Part shown: in pieces, positions 1-18,465 of the stretch
How the letters are laid out: every line of letters begins with the position of its first letter
How positions within the stretch are numbered: position 1 is the stretch's first letter
Assembly (NCBI RefSeq): GCF_008386235.1
Contig: NZ_CP040671.1
Location: forward strand, 1,924,001 to 1,988,000
Direction: 5' to 3'
DNA length: 64,000 nt
From: Thermosynechococcus sp. CL-1
Lineage (GTDB): Bacteria; Cyanobacteriota; Cyanobacteriia; Thermosynechococcales; Thermosynechococcaceae
Position numbers and translations under genes: made by a program
Notes under the pieces: generated by a model
What the model saw: the letters and a program-made list of their open reading frames with translations, nothing else
The model's database searches: none
What the model was told of the DNA's origin: nothing

Positions 1-1429
1 AGCGAACACGCACCGTTCCCCGGAAAAACACTTGGGGAGCCGGGGGTTCCAAAAATTGGAGGACCACACTGCGGTGATCTTGTTTGAGAGGGGTTTGCAG
101 CGTTAGCACCACCGACTGGAACTGACGGGTATTGTTGACCAAGGGCAAGGTCAAACTATAGTGAACACCATAATTGCCATGGGCGTAGTAGGCGGTGTCT
201 GGATAGCGTACTAACATGGGGGCACTTTGAATTTGACCCGTGCCAAGGGTACCTCGGTGGAGCGTACTAATGCCATAGGAGATGGCTCGCCCCGGTGCCG
301 GAATCGTTAAAGCCTGTCCATGGGTTTGGCCATCGGTGAGGGTAGCTTGCCAGCGAGAGCCCTGACTGACACCGGCCACACGGCCATAAAAGAAGCGACC
401 AAACTGACTACTATTGGGGGGCGTGGGTGGAATGTCGCGGGGGGTAACCAGTTGACCGCGATGGAGCATTGCCCACCATTCCTCTAGGGTGGGTGCCCGT
501 TCGGTGCCCTGCTCGTTCATGCGGGCAAACATTGACATTTGCGCTAAGTAAATCGGGCCACTACTTTCTAAATACATCAGGGTGGAGCGGCCATTGGAGG
601 AGGAGACTTCACCAAAGGGATTTGTATCCGGGATTAGGGGTAACTTGGGGCCGACGCTGCCATCGGCATTGAGCATAAACTCTGCCCGAACCCGATTGAG
701 TACCGCATTGGGAAATTGAGTGGGCAACGGCAGCGGCAAATTCGCCAACATCCGCGCTTCGCGAGGGGGAATGGTTATCTGTGAGGGAAAGAACGTCTGC
801 CGTACCCCCCGCAGCACTTGGTTGGTGACGCGACTCCCAGGCCCTGAAAAAACAAAGCCCGTGGGGTTATCGAGCATGGCGGGCAAATTGCGGAAGGGAG
901 CATCTGGCGTACTTAAAAAACTAGCGGCTTGATGAAATCTCACCGTGACATAGCGATCCGTTGGGTTATAGGCCAACAGCCCCAAATAGAGGGTTGGCGT
1001 ACTCACCGCCCGATTGGATTGGGTAATGTGGTGGGCAAAGACATCAAAGCGCCCCTCTAAGGGATAGTTGAGGTGAGCCGCCGGTTGCCATTTCCCGTGG
1101 GGTGGAAAGGTGGAGAGGAGAATTCCCTCAGAGCGCACCATCTCTGGACTGTTGCTGTTAAAGACGGGCACATCGTCTAATTGGCCGGGAAGTGGACGAA
1201 TGTCTTGGGGAAAATAGGCAAAATTGGTGGGTGTGACGTAGGCCGTTGCAGCGGGTGGGGAAGGGACTTCAGGGGGTGGAACGTTGACGGGTACCGCATT
1301 GGCCTGAACAACAACATTCGAGCGAGGCGAATATTCCTGTACAACGGTGGATGAATGTTGGGGTGGAGTTGCTAGAGCGGCTTGTGCCACAAGAATGGGA
1401 GCAAGCATATTCGATCCAAACCACAGCAT
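1..1429 (-). CDS. DUF3370-family secreted protein, C-terminus cut by window edge
   Basis: The frame is open from an ATG at 1429 to the left edge of the window, so the C-terminus is missing. I recognise the cyanobacterial DUF3370 family from the stretch FPQDIRPLPGQLDDVPVFNS near residue 70, followed by a 'SEGILLSTFP' type segment. No biochemical function is established for the family as far as I know. The N-terminus (MLWFGSNMLAPILVAQAALA) resembles a signal peptide ending in ALA, so export to periplasm or surface is likely. A second in-frame ATG at 1408 would shorten the signal and is less attractive. The gene is divergent from rpaA with about 460 bases between them. Confidence 0.7.
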   Translation of the reverse strand, partial: MLWFGSNMLAPILVAQAALATPPQHSSTVVQEYSPRSNVVVQANAVPVNVPPPEVPSPPAATAYVTPTNFAYFPQDIRPLPGQLDDVPVFNSNSPEMVRSEGILLSTFPPHGKWQPAAHLNYPLEGRFDVFAHHITQSNRAVSTPTLYLGLLAYNPTDRYVTVRFHQAASFLSTPDAPFRNLPAMLDNPTGFVFSGPGSRVTNQVLRGVRQTFFPSQITIPPREARMLANLPLPLPTQFPNAVLNRVRAEFMLNADGSVGPKLPLIPDTNPFGEVSSSNGRSTLMYLESSGPIYLAQMSMFARMNEQGTERAPTLEEWWAMLHRGQLVTPRDIPPTPPNSSQFGRFFYGRVAGVSQGSRWQATLTDGQTHGQALTIPAPGRAISYGISTLHRGTLGTGQIQSAPMLVRYPDTAYYAHGNYGVHYSLTLPLVNNTRQFQSVVLTLQTPLKQDHRSVVLQFLEPPAPQVFFRGTVRVR

Positions 1430-6019: not shown

Positions 6020-7927
6020 GTGCCTCTACCTTTGATGCCGTAAGGCGTTGAGCACATTCTGGGATCCTTATTTTCGGTCCCAAACCGAAGGAGTGCCTCT
6101 ACCTTTGATGCCGTAAGGCGTTGAGCACTCACTGATCAGGGCGAGGAGACCGCCCTTGCGGCTGTGCCTCTACCTTTGATGCCGTAAGGCGTTGAGCACT
6201 CATCGTGCATGAACTTATGCACATTTTACTTTCTGTGCCTCTACCTTTGATGCCGTAAGGCGTTGAGCACGTCTACCACCTAACGGTAGCGTCAAGCCTT
6301 CTCTAGTGCCTCTACCTTTGATGCCGTAAGGCGTTGAGCACGAAAATATTGGGTTGGTGAATCTAACGGCCACTCTTGAGTGCCTCTACCTTTGATGCCG
6401 TAAGGCGTTGAGCACTTTCGCCCACATCGAAAATGATATAGTTACAATACTTGTGCCTCTACCTTTGATGCCGTAAGGCGTTGAGCACGTATGGGAAACA
6501 AATTATGAAATCTACACTAGGTGGGTGCCTCTACCTTTGATGCCGTAAGGCGTTGAGCACGCTTCTTGGGATGCCTAGCGGTTCTCTAGTTTACCTAGGT
6601 GCCTCTACCTTTGATGCCGTAAGGCGTTGAGCACGTAGGCATACATTGACTTTATCTGGCTCTCCAACGTGCCTCTACCTTTGATGCCGTAAGGCGTTGA
6701 GCACTTCGGTAAACAACCGAACAACTTGGCAGTCGTCAAAACGTGCCTCTACCTTTGATGCCGTAAGGCGTTGAGCACCCCAACCACCCGTTCAACCACC
6801 TGCTCAGCCACCCGTGTGCCTCTACCTTTGATGCCGTAAGGCGTTGAGCACCAGACGGAAGAGAAAGATGCATAAGCATTATTGGTGGGTGCCTCTACCT
6901 TTGATGCCGTAAGGCGTTGAGCACAGAGGGGTAGAAGGCTTTTAGGATGCTAACAATAGTGCCTCTACCTTTGATGCCGTAAGGCGTTGAGCACAAGCTG
7001 TTGAAGAAATTGCAAAAAAAGTACGTGAATGTGCCTCTACCTTTGATGCCGTAAGGCGTTGAGCACGCCTGTTGACGTTGCTCTTTTGTTACTTCCTCAT
7101 GTGCCTCTACCTTTGATGCCGTAAGGCGTTGAGCACACCGCCTTGGTTATCAGAAGTAACAAAAGCGGGTTTGTGCCTCTACCTTTGATGCCGTAAGGCG
7201 TTGAGCACATTGCGCAATTGTAAAAAGTTCTGCCACTTTGTACGTGCCTCTACCTTTGATGCCGTAAGGCGTTGAGCACGATACAGTTGGATATACCGAA
7301 TTGCCGAATAACAAGTGCCTCTACCTTTGATGCCGTAAGGCGTTGAGCACGTAGTAATCCGCAAACGGCAGATTAATTTGAGCCCGCAAGTGCCTCTACC
7401 TTTGATGCCGTAAGGCGTTGAGCACCAAACTTCTAAGTCCATTCAAGAAGCAGTCGTTTGGGTGCCTCTACCTTTGATGCCGTAAGGCGTTGAGCACACT
7501 GTAATTGCGCTAATTCACTACGATAACGCTCCAGTGCCTCTACCTTTGATGCCGTAAGGCGTTGAGCACAAAAACCTTTCGCCTAAAAAGTTTTTTGGTT
7601 TTTTTGTGCCTCTACCTTTGATGCCGTAAGGCGTTGAGCACTTAGCTAACAAAACAAAGAGCTCTCCTGTGTAATAGTGCCTCTACCTTTGATGCCGTAA
7701 GGCGTTGAGCACCTGCGGGGAAATACCAGTTCCTGTCGTCGACTTGGGTGCCTCTACCTTTGATGCCGTAAGGCGTTGAGCACAGTGATGATTACTTTCT
7801 TCGGCCTTAGGCTCAGGAAGTGCCTCTACCTTTGATGCCGTAAGGCGTTGAGCACCTTCAAAAATATCAACTTTGTTTTCGGAATTAACTAGTGCCTCTA
7901 CCTTTGATGCCGTAAGGCGTTGAGCAC
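6020..7927 (+). CRISPR. CRISPR array 1: 27 identical 36-bp repeats, 26 spacers
   Basis: The repeat starts GTGCCTCTACC and ends GGCGTTGAGCAC; all 27 copies look identical, including both terminal ones. Repeat starts: 6020, 6093, 6164, 6235, 6306, 6380, 6453, 6525, 6599, 6669, 6743, 6816, 6889, 6959, 7031, 7101, 7173, 7244, 7315, 7390, 7462, 7534, 7606, 7677, 7748, 7820, 7892. Spacers are 34-39 nt. The ends GTGC/GCAC are complementary, and an internal GCC-GTAA-GGC hairpin is followed by GTTGAGCAC, which resembles the 8-nt handle position of type III-like repeats in Thermus. That and the left-side leader favour plus-strand transcription. No cas gene is in the window, so the subtype is not assignable here. 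Confidence 0.98.
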
Positions 7928-16134: not shown

Positions 16135-17602
16135 GTTTCCATTTAATCTACTTCCCCGAAGGGAAGCAAGGTTTGAGGGTGGGCTTAAACTTCACCCAAA
16201 TACCAAGATGTTTCCACTTAATCTACTTCCCCGAAGGGAAGCAAGTTGACCCTAGGTGGTCTTTCAAATAACCAAATTTTTGACCTGTTTCCACTTAATC
16301 TACTTCCCCGAAGGGAAGCAAGTTGACCCTAGGTGGTCTTTCAAATAACCAAATTTTTGACCTGTTTCCACTTAATCTACTTCCCCGAAGGGAAGCAAGT
16401 TCCCTTTGCGGTCGCACAACTTATCAAGAAGTTGTGTTTCCACTTAATCTACTTCCCCGAAGGGAAGCAAGTCCTATTAATATTTTGAACTTAACTACAG
16501 ACGCGGTGATCAAGTTTCCACTTAATCTACTTCCCCGAAGGGAAGCAAGTTACATCTACTAACCATGATTTTGGTAAGCATACATTGACTTTATGTTTCC
16601 ACTTAATCTACTTCCCCGAAGGGAAGCAAGGGGTTTTCTTGCAAGTCAACTAGAATCACCAACCAAGTTTCCACTTAATCTACTTCCCCGAAGGGAAGCA
16701 AGCAAACAAGTTTTCGTGCCGATTGGGTTCCTTGTTCTAGGCGGGTTTCCACTTAATCTACTTCCCCGAAGGGAAGCAAGAACAGAAGGGAACAAGATTC
16801 TAAAAGGTCTATTGGCACAAGTTTCCACTTAATCTACTTCCCCGAAGGGAAGCAAGATCTCCAACAGAAATGTTGGAAATATTGTATAAATTTAGAATGT
16901 TTCCACTTAATCTACTTCCCCGAAGGGAAGCAAGTACTTGTTTTTTTTGTTGTTTCATTGGAGGTTTAGTATGTTTCCACTTAATCTACTTCCCCGAAGG
17001 GAAGCAAGTCTCTGTCCGCCTCTCTACGAGAGGCAATTGTTTGGGTGTTTCCACTTAATCTACTTCCCCGAAGGGAAGCAAGTACTGCGGTGACACAGCT
17101 ACTCAGTTTTGGTGAACTGAAGTTTCCACTTAATCTACTTCCCCGAAGGGAAGCAAGAAAAAGCGTTTGTCCCAATTGGGTTTCTTACCCTAGGGTTTCC
17201 ACTTAATCTACTTCCCCGAAGGGAAGCAAGAGCGAACACAATTTAGCAGTAATTCCTTTGGAATTGTTTCCACTTAATCTACTTCCCCGAAGGGAAGCAA
17301 GTTAAAGAATATTGGGATGGTTGCATTTTTGGGGATTTGTTTCCACTTAATCTACTTCCCCGAAGGGAAGCAAGTTGGGAAAACCCTCAAACAGAGGGTT
17401 CCAAAATCTTAAGTTTCCACTTAATCTACTTCCCCGAAGGGAAGCAAGAAGGAAATAAATCAATGAAAAAATCTCCATTAGAAATGTTGTTTCCACTTAA
17501 TCTACTTCCCCGAAGGGAAGCAAGAACAGGCTACACCATCGACAAGGACTACGTAACCTTGTTTGAGTTTCCACTTAATCTACTTCCCCGAAGGGAAGCA
17601 AG
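16135..17602 (-). CRISPR. CRISPR array 2: 20 repeats of 36 bp, 19 spacers, different repeat from array 1
   Basis: On the plus strand the repeat starts GTTTCCACTTAATC and ends GAAGGGAAGCAAG. Repeat starts: 16135, 16210, 16287, 16364, 16436, 16514, 16595, 16667, 16745, 16821, 16899, 16973, 17047, 17122, 17195, 17266, 17339, 17413, 17489, 17567. Spacers are 35-45 nt. The first repeat has one change (C to T at its eighth base); the others look identical. Read on the minus strand the repeat ends GTGGAAAC, like a standard crRNA handle, and contains a CTTCCC-TTCG-GGGAAG hairpin. With the degenerate copy and a duplicated spacer at the left end, this favours leftward transcription from a leader near 17603-17800. 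No cas gene is nearby. Confidence 0.98.
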
Positions 17603-17796
17603 AGCATCTTCAATATAGCCTCTCCCTGAGCGGATTGCAACCCCCTGTTCCGAGGGATCCCCTGCGAGGGGTGTCAAATCATTTTCTACGAAGCCACTGA
17701 AAATACTCAAACCCTCTTCTAGAGCGACTCCGAGGGATTCTACGCAAGAATCAGAAATTGGGGCACTTGAATAGATCCGTCGGCAGAGAAAATTGA
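17603..17796 (-). promoter_or_regulatory. Probable leader side of CRISPR array 2
   Basis: About 190 bases without a gene between the last repeat and the muramidase gene. It contains a CCCCT-GCG-AGGGG hairpin (17659-17671) and two copies of CCGAGGGAT (one at about 17650, one near 17730). Assignment as leader rests on the inferred leftward direction of the array, not on a known leader motif. Confidence 0.4.
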
Positions 17797-18465
17797 CTAG
17801 CGTAACGCATCCCTCCCCGGAGAGTGTGCAGTCTGGGAGGCGGCTAATTCTTGAGCCAACAGTTGCTGGTAAATCTCTTCGAGGTGGGGTGTGATCAGGT
17901 TGCTTTCAAGGCCGTAGCCCAGACTAGTCCACGTATCCGACAGTAGGGCAAAAACTTCCTGTACACGCCCCTCCCGCAACAGTTGGGGAATATCGGCATT
18001 CCAAGCAGCCGGATCTGTGAGCCAGCGATAGACCACCTGATCTTGATACTCTGGGGCAAAGCTATAGCCCTGCCAAAACCAGCTCGGCGGTTGGGGATGA
18101 TAGCGGGCGGCTTTTTCTGCCCAAGTGGTGGTGAGAAATTGATAGCGGCCTGCGGCGGTGGTACATAGGTGCTGATTGGGACCGCGGCGAATGGGAATAC
18201 AGCGATCGGGATGCTGGCTGAGGTCTTGGATGTGCTCGCCACCATAGAGCAGGGTGTAGGGATTGGCGTCGTTGGCCTCACTGGCAGAAATGGTGCGCAT
18301 CAGTGCCCGTACATAGGGATCACCCCCCTGCATGACTAAGGGGGCAATTTGACCCGGCTGCCAGCGGTACCAGTACCACCAGAGGGCACTTGAACGCGAC
18401 CCAAAAAAGAAATAGCCCATGCCCACTAGAAGAGCGATCGCCAGCAACCAACGGGAAAACCGCAC
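17797..18465 (-). CDS. Membrane-anchored GH104-type (lambda endolysin-like) muramidase
   Basis: 222 residues. A transmembrane or signal-anchor segment (about 6-25) is followed by a lysozyme-like domain: ALMRTISASEAND supplies the probable catalytic glutamate and TTAAGRYQFLTTTW is the family's second motif. The fold cleaves peptidoglycan glycan strands, so a periplasmic wall-remodelling role is likely. I chose GTG 18465: GAGG overlapping the stop of the upstream gene lies eight bases before it. The open frame runs on to 18672, but that would overlap the upstream gene by about 200 bases. It is coupled to the NmrA-like gene (10-base gap). The family is common in phages as well as in cyanobacterial chromosomes. 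Confidence 0.78.
   Translation of the reverse strand: MRFSRWLLAIALLVGMGYFFFGSRSSALWWYWYRWQPGQIAPLVMQGGDPYVRALMRTISASEANDANPYTLLYGGEHIQDLSQHPDRCIPIRRGPNQHLCTTAAGRYQFLTTTWAEKAARYHPQPPSWFWQGYSFAPEYQDQVVYRWLTDPAAWNADIPQLLREGRVQEVFALLSDTWTSLGYGLESNLITPHLEEIYQQLLAQELAASQTAHSPGRDALR

Follow-up and report, generated by a model that had tools for sequence, protein, structure and literature searches.

Array 2, a CRISPR array in a window of 64,000 nucleotides from Thermosynechococcus sp. CL-1, contains two pairs of diverged look-alike spacers (8/14 and 10/18), with a third likely pair (9/17) positioned between them, and in each case the members differ in age. We lean, with moderate confidence, towards the reading that the array recorded related invaders at least twice and retained spacers from the same narrow regions, as judged from the spacer sequences. 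Spacers 8, 9 and 10 would have been gained from one invader, and spacers 14, 17 and 18 singly and later, from homologous sites in diverged relatives of that invader.

The coordinates of the features discussed here are collected in Table 1. The array layout, the spacer numbering and all six positions of paired spacers given by the sequence-only reading proved exact. Identical direct repeats, unique spacers of similar length (apart from spacers 2 and 3) and a leader at one end identify the locus as a CRISPR array. Repeats are identical in 19 of 20 cases, the exception being the leftmost (16135), which carries one mismatch and stands at the trailer end, opposite the leader side. Spacers 2 and 3 are a one-unit duplication within the array.

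Table 1 Positions of the arrays, spacers and other features discussed
Feature	Position	Strand	Remarks
CRISPR array 1	6020..7927		27 repeats of another type
Array 1 spacer overlapping spacer 6	6635..6668		
CRISPR array 2	16135..17602	-	20 repeats of 36 nt, 19 spacers of 35-45 nt
Spacers 2 and 3 with intervening repeat	16246..16363		identical 41 nt
Spacer 4	16400..16435		weak candidate partner of spacer 13 (17083-17121), 15/20 nt
Spacer 6	16550..16594		overlaps array 1 spacer
Spacer 8	16703..16744		older member of 8/14
Spacer 9	16781..16820	+ (putative coding strand)	older member of 9/17; TEGNKILKGLLAQ
Spacer 10	16857..16898		older member of 10/18; reads SPTEMLEILYKFR if on plus
Spacer 14	17158..17194		newer member of 8/14; aligns wholly within spacer 8 site
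Spacer 17	17375..17412	+ (putative coding strand)	newer member of 9/17; WENPQTEGSKIL
Spacer 18	17449..17488		newer member of 10/18
Leader of array 2	17603..17792 (end approximate)	-	conserved beside a repeat in other members of the genus
Small gene starting MKKSPLEML	L122 (IMG/VR contig) 543-803		

The approximately 190 nt to the right of the last repeat of array 2 also adjoin repeats, in conserved form, in other genomes of the genus, and a query of this repeat and flank (17567–17800) matched eight of 11 genomes at E ≤ 0.001, own genome counted. We took the right-hand flank as the leader because the same sequence follows a single repeat in two relatives, G006 (L010) and G009 (L009); by eye, too, the flank at the G009 site resembles that of array 2. 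With the leader on the right, the newest spacers are on the right, hence spacers 8, 9 and 10 are older than 14, 17 and 18. The crRNA of the array appears to read from the minus strand. Dispersed leader copies, each with a single, mostly degenerate repeat, were found three times in the own genome besides array 2 and six times, as long copies, in G009; these may be read as CRISPR relics or as a spreading leader-repeat unit. The three copies in the own genome (G000:C1) are located at 2161562–2161786, 2176649–2176828 and 879820–880007 (L094, L037 and L038). The genome carrying array 2 also has GCGATCGC-rich sequence.

Pair 8/14 is well beyond chance and stands without help from the other pairs. 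Its members are identical at 27 of 37 ungapped positions, a score of 17 (match +1, mismatch −1) against a best same-strand score of 15 in 400 dinucleotide-shuffled versions of array 2, and none of 2000 pair shuffles reached its score, either as DNA or in translation. Both spacers had been said to encode VPIGFL. This frame exists on the plus strand, as (Q/K)(V/A)FVPIGFL with a translated score of 42, but the pair is open on the minus strand as well, in the same third-base register, where PR(T/V)RNPIGT scores slightly better (45), hence VPIGFL is not established.

Pair 10/18 exceeds chance at the DNA level but is unremarkable in translation. The match of 16 of 18 bases noticed earlier was confirmed (score 14), and this score was reached in four of 2000 pair shuffles as DNA but in 142 of 2000 in translation (translated scores: minus 23, plus 20), with 0.0125 pairs scoring at least 14 as DNA expected per shuffled array 2 (400 dinucleotide shuffles). 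On the plus strand, spacer 18 resembles what may be a ribosome site and gene start, consisting of AAGGA, nine bases and ATG AAA AAA TCT CCA.

Pair 9/17 is ordinary as DNA, with 16 of 23 nt identical and a score of 9 that 199 of 2000 pair shuffles reached. In translation (TEGNKIL/TEGSKIL) its score is 30 on the plus strand and 22 on the minus strand, the former being reached in four of 2000 pair shuffles, and the synonymous changes named for it are all present. When spacer 9 was set against the three spacers between 14 and 18, a slot test picked after the pairs had been seen, seven of 2000 shuffles reached the translated score and 285 of 2000 the DNA score. We regard 9/17 as likely in context, which depends on its position between 8/14 and 10/18.

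It could instead be that only 8/14, and perhaps 10/18, is real, and that 9/17 and the collinearity are products of chance and of selection by eye, which would leave no more than one or two target sites sampled repeatedly. The DNA score of 9/17 is equalled by 2/6 (= 3/6), and over all pairs of a shuffled array 2 (120 shuffles) 0.125 translated scores of at least 30 are expected. Furthermore, the three pairs do keep the same order, as was claimed, but three pairs will be collinear in one of six cases by chance, so the order carries little weight. What speaks for the pair is that it sits exactly in its slot, with the low count for the translated score there, and we consider the chance account unlikely, although it deserves serious attention. 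Shuffled spacers had been proposed as the test of the three look-alike pairs; 8/14 survived this, as did 10/18 as DNA, whereas 9/17 as DNA did not, its rarity being confined to the translated score and to its slot.

Most differences had also been said to fall at every third base. This holds for six of ten in 8/14 (p = 0.039 for that phase alone, uncorrected for phase choice) and four of seven in 9/17 (p = 0.16), but for neither of the two in 10/18, and the third-position excess gives modest support for coding.

Ranked over array 2 on the same strand, with 2/3 set aside, the best pairs are 8/14, 10/18, 4/13 (score 10) and then 9/17 and 2/6. The best inverted pair has a score of 11, and all three named pairs are in one orientation, which fits a requirement that spacers be antisense to transcripts. 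Pair 4/13 (AVAQLI/AVTQLL) was rejected as a fourth collinear pair: matches as good came up in 12 of 2000 pair shuffles at the DNA level and in 18 of 2000 in translation, and a shuffled array should contain 1.7 pairs with its DNA score.

The alignments are offset between the spacers by about 2 nt in 8/14, about 15 nt in 9/17 and 22 nt in 10/18. Members of a pair look independently acquired, since the boundaries are shifted (in 9/17 and 10/18), the lengths differ and the repeats are identical. Five to seven other spacers separate the members of each pair, and the double immunisation proposed by the sequence-only reading is partly supported, in that the members are apart in acquisition time and look like independent acquisitions. 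It is scarcely credible that an old block of the array was duplicated and its spacers then mutated in place: spacers 2 and 3 prove that unit duplication occurs in array 2, but mismatches take up as much as 30 percent of the positions in the paired stretches, against a single divergent repeat among 20, and boundaries and lengths are shifted.

The look-alikes could possibly derive from related invaders, from variants in one invader population or from paralogous genes of one invader. If paralogous genes or mixed variants in a single invader or wave gave both members at once, a diverged copy would be required for every one of two or three sites, and the five to seven intervening spacers tell against it as well. 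We find this improbable, even though the collections searched yielded no target and look-alikes are also present within arrays of the relative G008 (arrays a and ie). Retention of spacers from related invaders met at different times is the reading we carry forward.

Random sampling of 18 distinct spacers from one 40-kb genome would give 0.085 same-strand pairs overlapping by at least 18 nt, with a probability of 0.002 for two or more such pairs and 0.00025 for three or more. In a 5-kb model, 0.69 pairs are expected and these probabilities are 0.14 and 0.03, which suggests that sampling was concentrated or that the target was small.

Array 2 also has a target site in common with array 1, whose repeat occurs next to the type I cas genes at another place in the genome as well. 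Spacer 6 and one array 1 spacer are identical at 20 of 21 nt in their overlap (score 19, against at most 15 in 100 shuffles). The overlap was found over 219 spacers in 13 arrays of six genus genomes, the arrays being those near cas1 or leader hits, a set that is not exhaustive. At up to three mismatches, the own genome carries the site only within the two arrays, and an overlap between arrays of different type indicates that both sampled one target or invader lineage. On the minus strand the overlap reads VGEPDKVNVCLPKSWLVDV (by eye) and its sole difference is synonymous (Leu); on the plus strand this difference is Lys/Arg. Three cross-array pairs, including that of spacer 6, reach a score of 12, against 0.69 expected; the matches of spacers 7 and 16 to the array 1 spacer at 6342–6379 (score 12) were read as chance. 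Within array 1, the adjacent spacers at 7067–7100 and 7137–7172 share CTTTTGTTACTTC on opposite strands, with a score of 13, the maximum over 30 shuffles of array 1.

Among 12 arrays of the genus with at least five spacers, four have non-identical pairs scoring at least 14 and the other eight have none, so look-alikes are neither peculiar to array 2 nor the rule. The pairs occur in array 2 (n = 2), G008a (n = 2), the own type I-adjacent array (n = 1, low-complexity) and G008ie (n = 2, one inverted). When each of the four was shuffled 30 times, the mean was 0 to 0.07 such pairs; single shuffles reach 16 for the own type I-adjacent array and 17 for G008ie. Diverged or abutting pairs were also seen in G008 between spacers 9 and 39 of L107 (29-nt repeats) and in L101 (25/26, 3/25 and 15/21), and some G008 look-alike pairs lie far apart within their array.

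Recombination that joined array segments from two separately immunised lineages would account for the shared order with no need for one lineage to have been exposed repeatedly, and leader-bearing arrays or relics are present in genus members. However, no array 2 spacer recurs in the arrays of five other genus genomes (from the same 13 arrays and 219 spacers; best cross-genome score 14, inverted), a weak test as these relatives are other species. We judge recombination to be very doubtful.

Searches of phage, plasmid, IMG/VR and genome collections, limited by how sensitive the patterns were, found no target of the array 2 spacers, hence the terms “related invaders” and “homologous gene” are drawn from the likeness of the spacers to one another. 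In blastn searches with the whole of array 2, the phage collection returned six records at E 2–6 and the plasmid collection 34 records, 33 of them at E 5. The one match at a low E-value, to a Euhalothece plasmid (E 2e-5), was unconvincing; it consists of three pieces at 74 percent, has no annotated feature beneath it and is perhaps repeat-like. Spacer 6 merged with the overlapping array 1 spacer (58 nt) gave 130 phage records (best E 0.4 among 20 listed), and tblastn with joined spacer translations gave no match in phages.

IMG/VR was scanned eight times with back-translated patterns and the matches were read in frame. The 9/17 pattern had one match, and none with a stricter pattern (first codon fixed as GAA) or with the spacer 17 half, and there were four matches to the plus-strand and ten to the minus-strand pattern of 8/14, five and two to two patterns of 10/18, and ten to the spacer 6 composite. 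Read in frame, none was convincing as a homologue. Two scans of genome contigs with exact patterns gave no matches. In 386 genomes of the phylum, the plus-strand 8/14 pattern found only spacers 8 and 14, from which it was built, and three further queries run over 29 genomes of the order (the pattern of 9/17, the overlap of spacer 6 and the core of spacer 10) found the own arrays only, plus one place with three mismatches in G014.

When 58 spacers of the own genome were compared with 30 IMG/VR contigs by blastn-short, 40 lines were obtained at E ≤ 0.5, against 50 in a reversed-contig control. Three real lines and no control lines fell below 0.01: spacer 5 on L030 and spacer 11 on L022 and L024. 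The first (16/16 nt) was rejected as it shows no extension (21/42 over the whole spacer), and the other two are matches of the 15-nt T-run in spacer 11.

The spacer 18 reading MKKSPLEML occurs at a true start codon, as the pattern demanded, in L122 and L123 (the latter from a 36-kb record), and these were compared with the spacers together with a 14-kb stretch of the record of L123. About 0.5 matches are expected for patterns as strict as this one, by a rough estimate which assumes some 60 Gb. As a target L122/L123 was rejected, since the other array 2 spacers score at most 37 and controls (G008a, G003i) at most 39, and the match is probably chance. Neither the MKKSPLEML protein nor the first 8 kb of L122 had a relative in the phage collection. 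Two array 1 spacers, 15 and 13 from the right end, had translated scores of 42 and 41 (controls at most 39), the former on L122 and L127 (G410 stretch) and the latter, which is Phe/Cys-rich, on L127.

The single Cas1 match in the genome is fused to Cas4 and belongs to a type I system away from array 2 (Cas4-Cas1 fusion, Cas3, Cas8a1/Cmx1, Cas7, Cas5, Cas6 and Cas2). No Cas1 stands beside array 2, which may therefore no longer acquire spacers; in G008, by comparison, a Cas1 adjoins an array whose leader is related (75 percent). A type III-B Cmr2/Cas10 was detected above cut-off, far from the window and not adjacent to array 2, and Cmr3 under cut-off (31.6 of 100.4 bits). On the putative minus-strand crRNA, the repeat end GTGGAAAC resembles type III handles, and to judge from this end the array 2 crRNAs may serve the type III-B (Cmr) complex of the genome. 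The strand scores conflict, 9/17 being better on plus and both 8/14 and 10/18 slightly better on minus, and minus-strand coding of 8/14, 10/18 and the spacer 6 overlap would ill suit type III RNA targeting.

If the invaders were related phages, as we suppose, the overlaps could recur because the spacers kept come from a confined portion of the invader under strong selection, such as early transcripts, or because the invader genome is small. Selection would be the simplest mechanism and is borrowed here from Thermus. In that system, protective type III spacers against phage phiFa are reported to cluster in early genes and on one strand, by selection and not by acquisition bias, unlike those against phage phiKo, which are more evenly spread over the genome (PMC7515739), and natural type III protospacers occupy a narrow part of phiFa (PMC6452258). 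There is a slim chance that older, mismatched type III spacers primed new acquisition at the same sites of diverged invaders, in which case array 2 would refresh its own memory at fixed addresses. The placement of spacer 14, wholly inside the spacer 8 site, is what primed renewal would be expected to produce, and no test favours priming over selection.

If repeated recording of related invaders is correct, one chromosome keeps an ordered record of encounters between its host and diverged relatives of a single invader, key sites being resampled. Such arrays would offer a way to find hot target regions and virus divergence without the virus in hand, and the peptide stretches marked here could serve to recognise invaders of the genus in hot-spring viromes.

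On this reading array 2 is a natural example of an already known kind of event. The Thermus type III studies (PMC7515739, PMC6452258) share with it a thermophilic host, and would also share the retention, through selection, of spacers from a narrow region and one strand; our evidence differs, in that the Thermus phages are known and matched by spacers, whereas in array 2 it consists of diverged spacer pairs within one array. Type I and III-B systems aimed at the same phages in one cell are described in a Marinomonas study (PMC5576922), where III-B uses type I crRNAs, whereas arrays 1 and 2 are two separate arrays with overlapping spacers. In the work on Yellowstone cyanobacteria (PMC5017753), spacers of hot-spring hosts are directed time and again at endolysin genes of viruses and were matched to virome contigs, whereas the array 2 pairs mapped to no virus in the collections searched.
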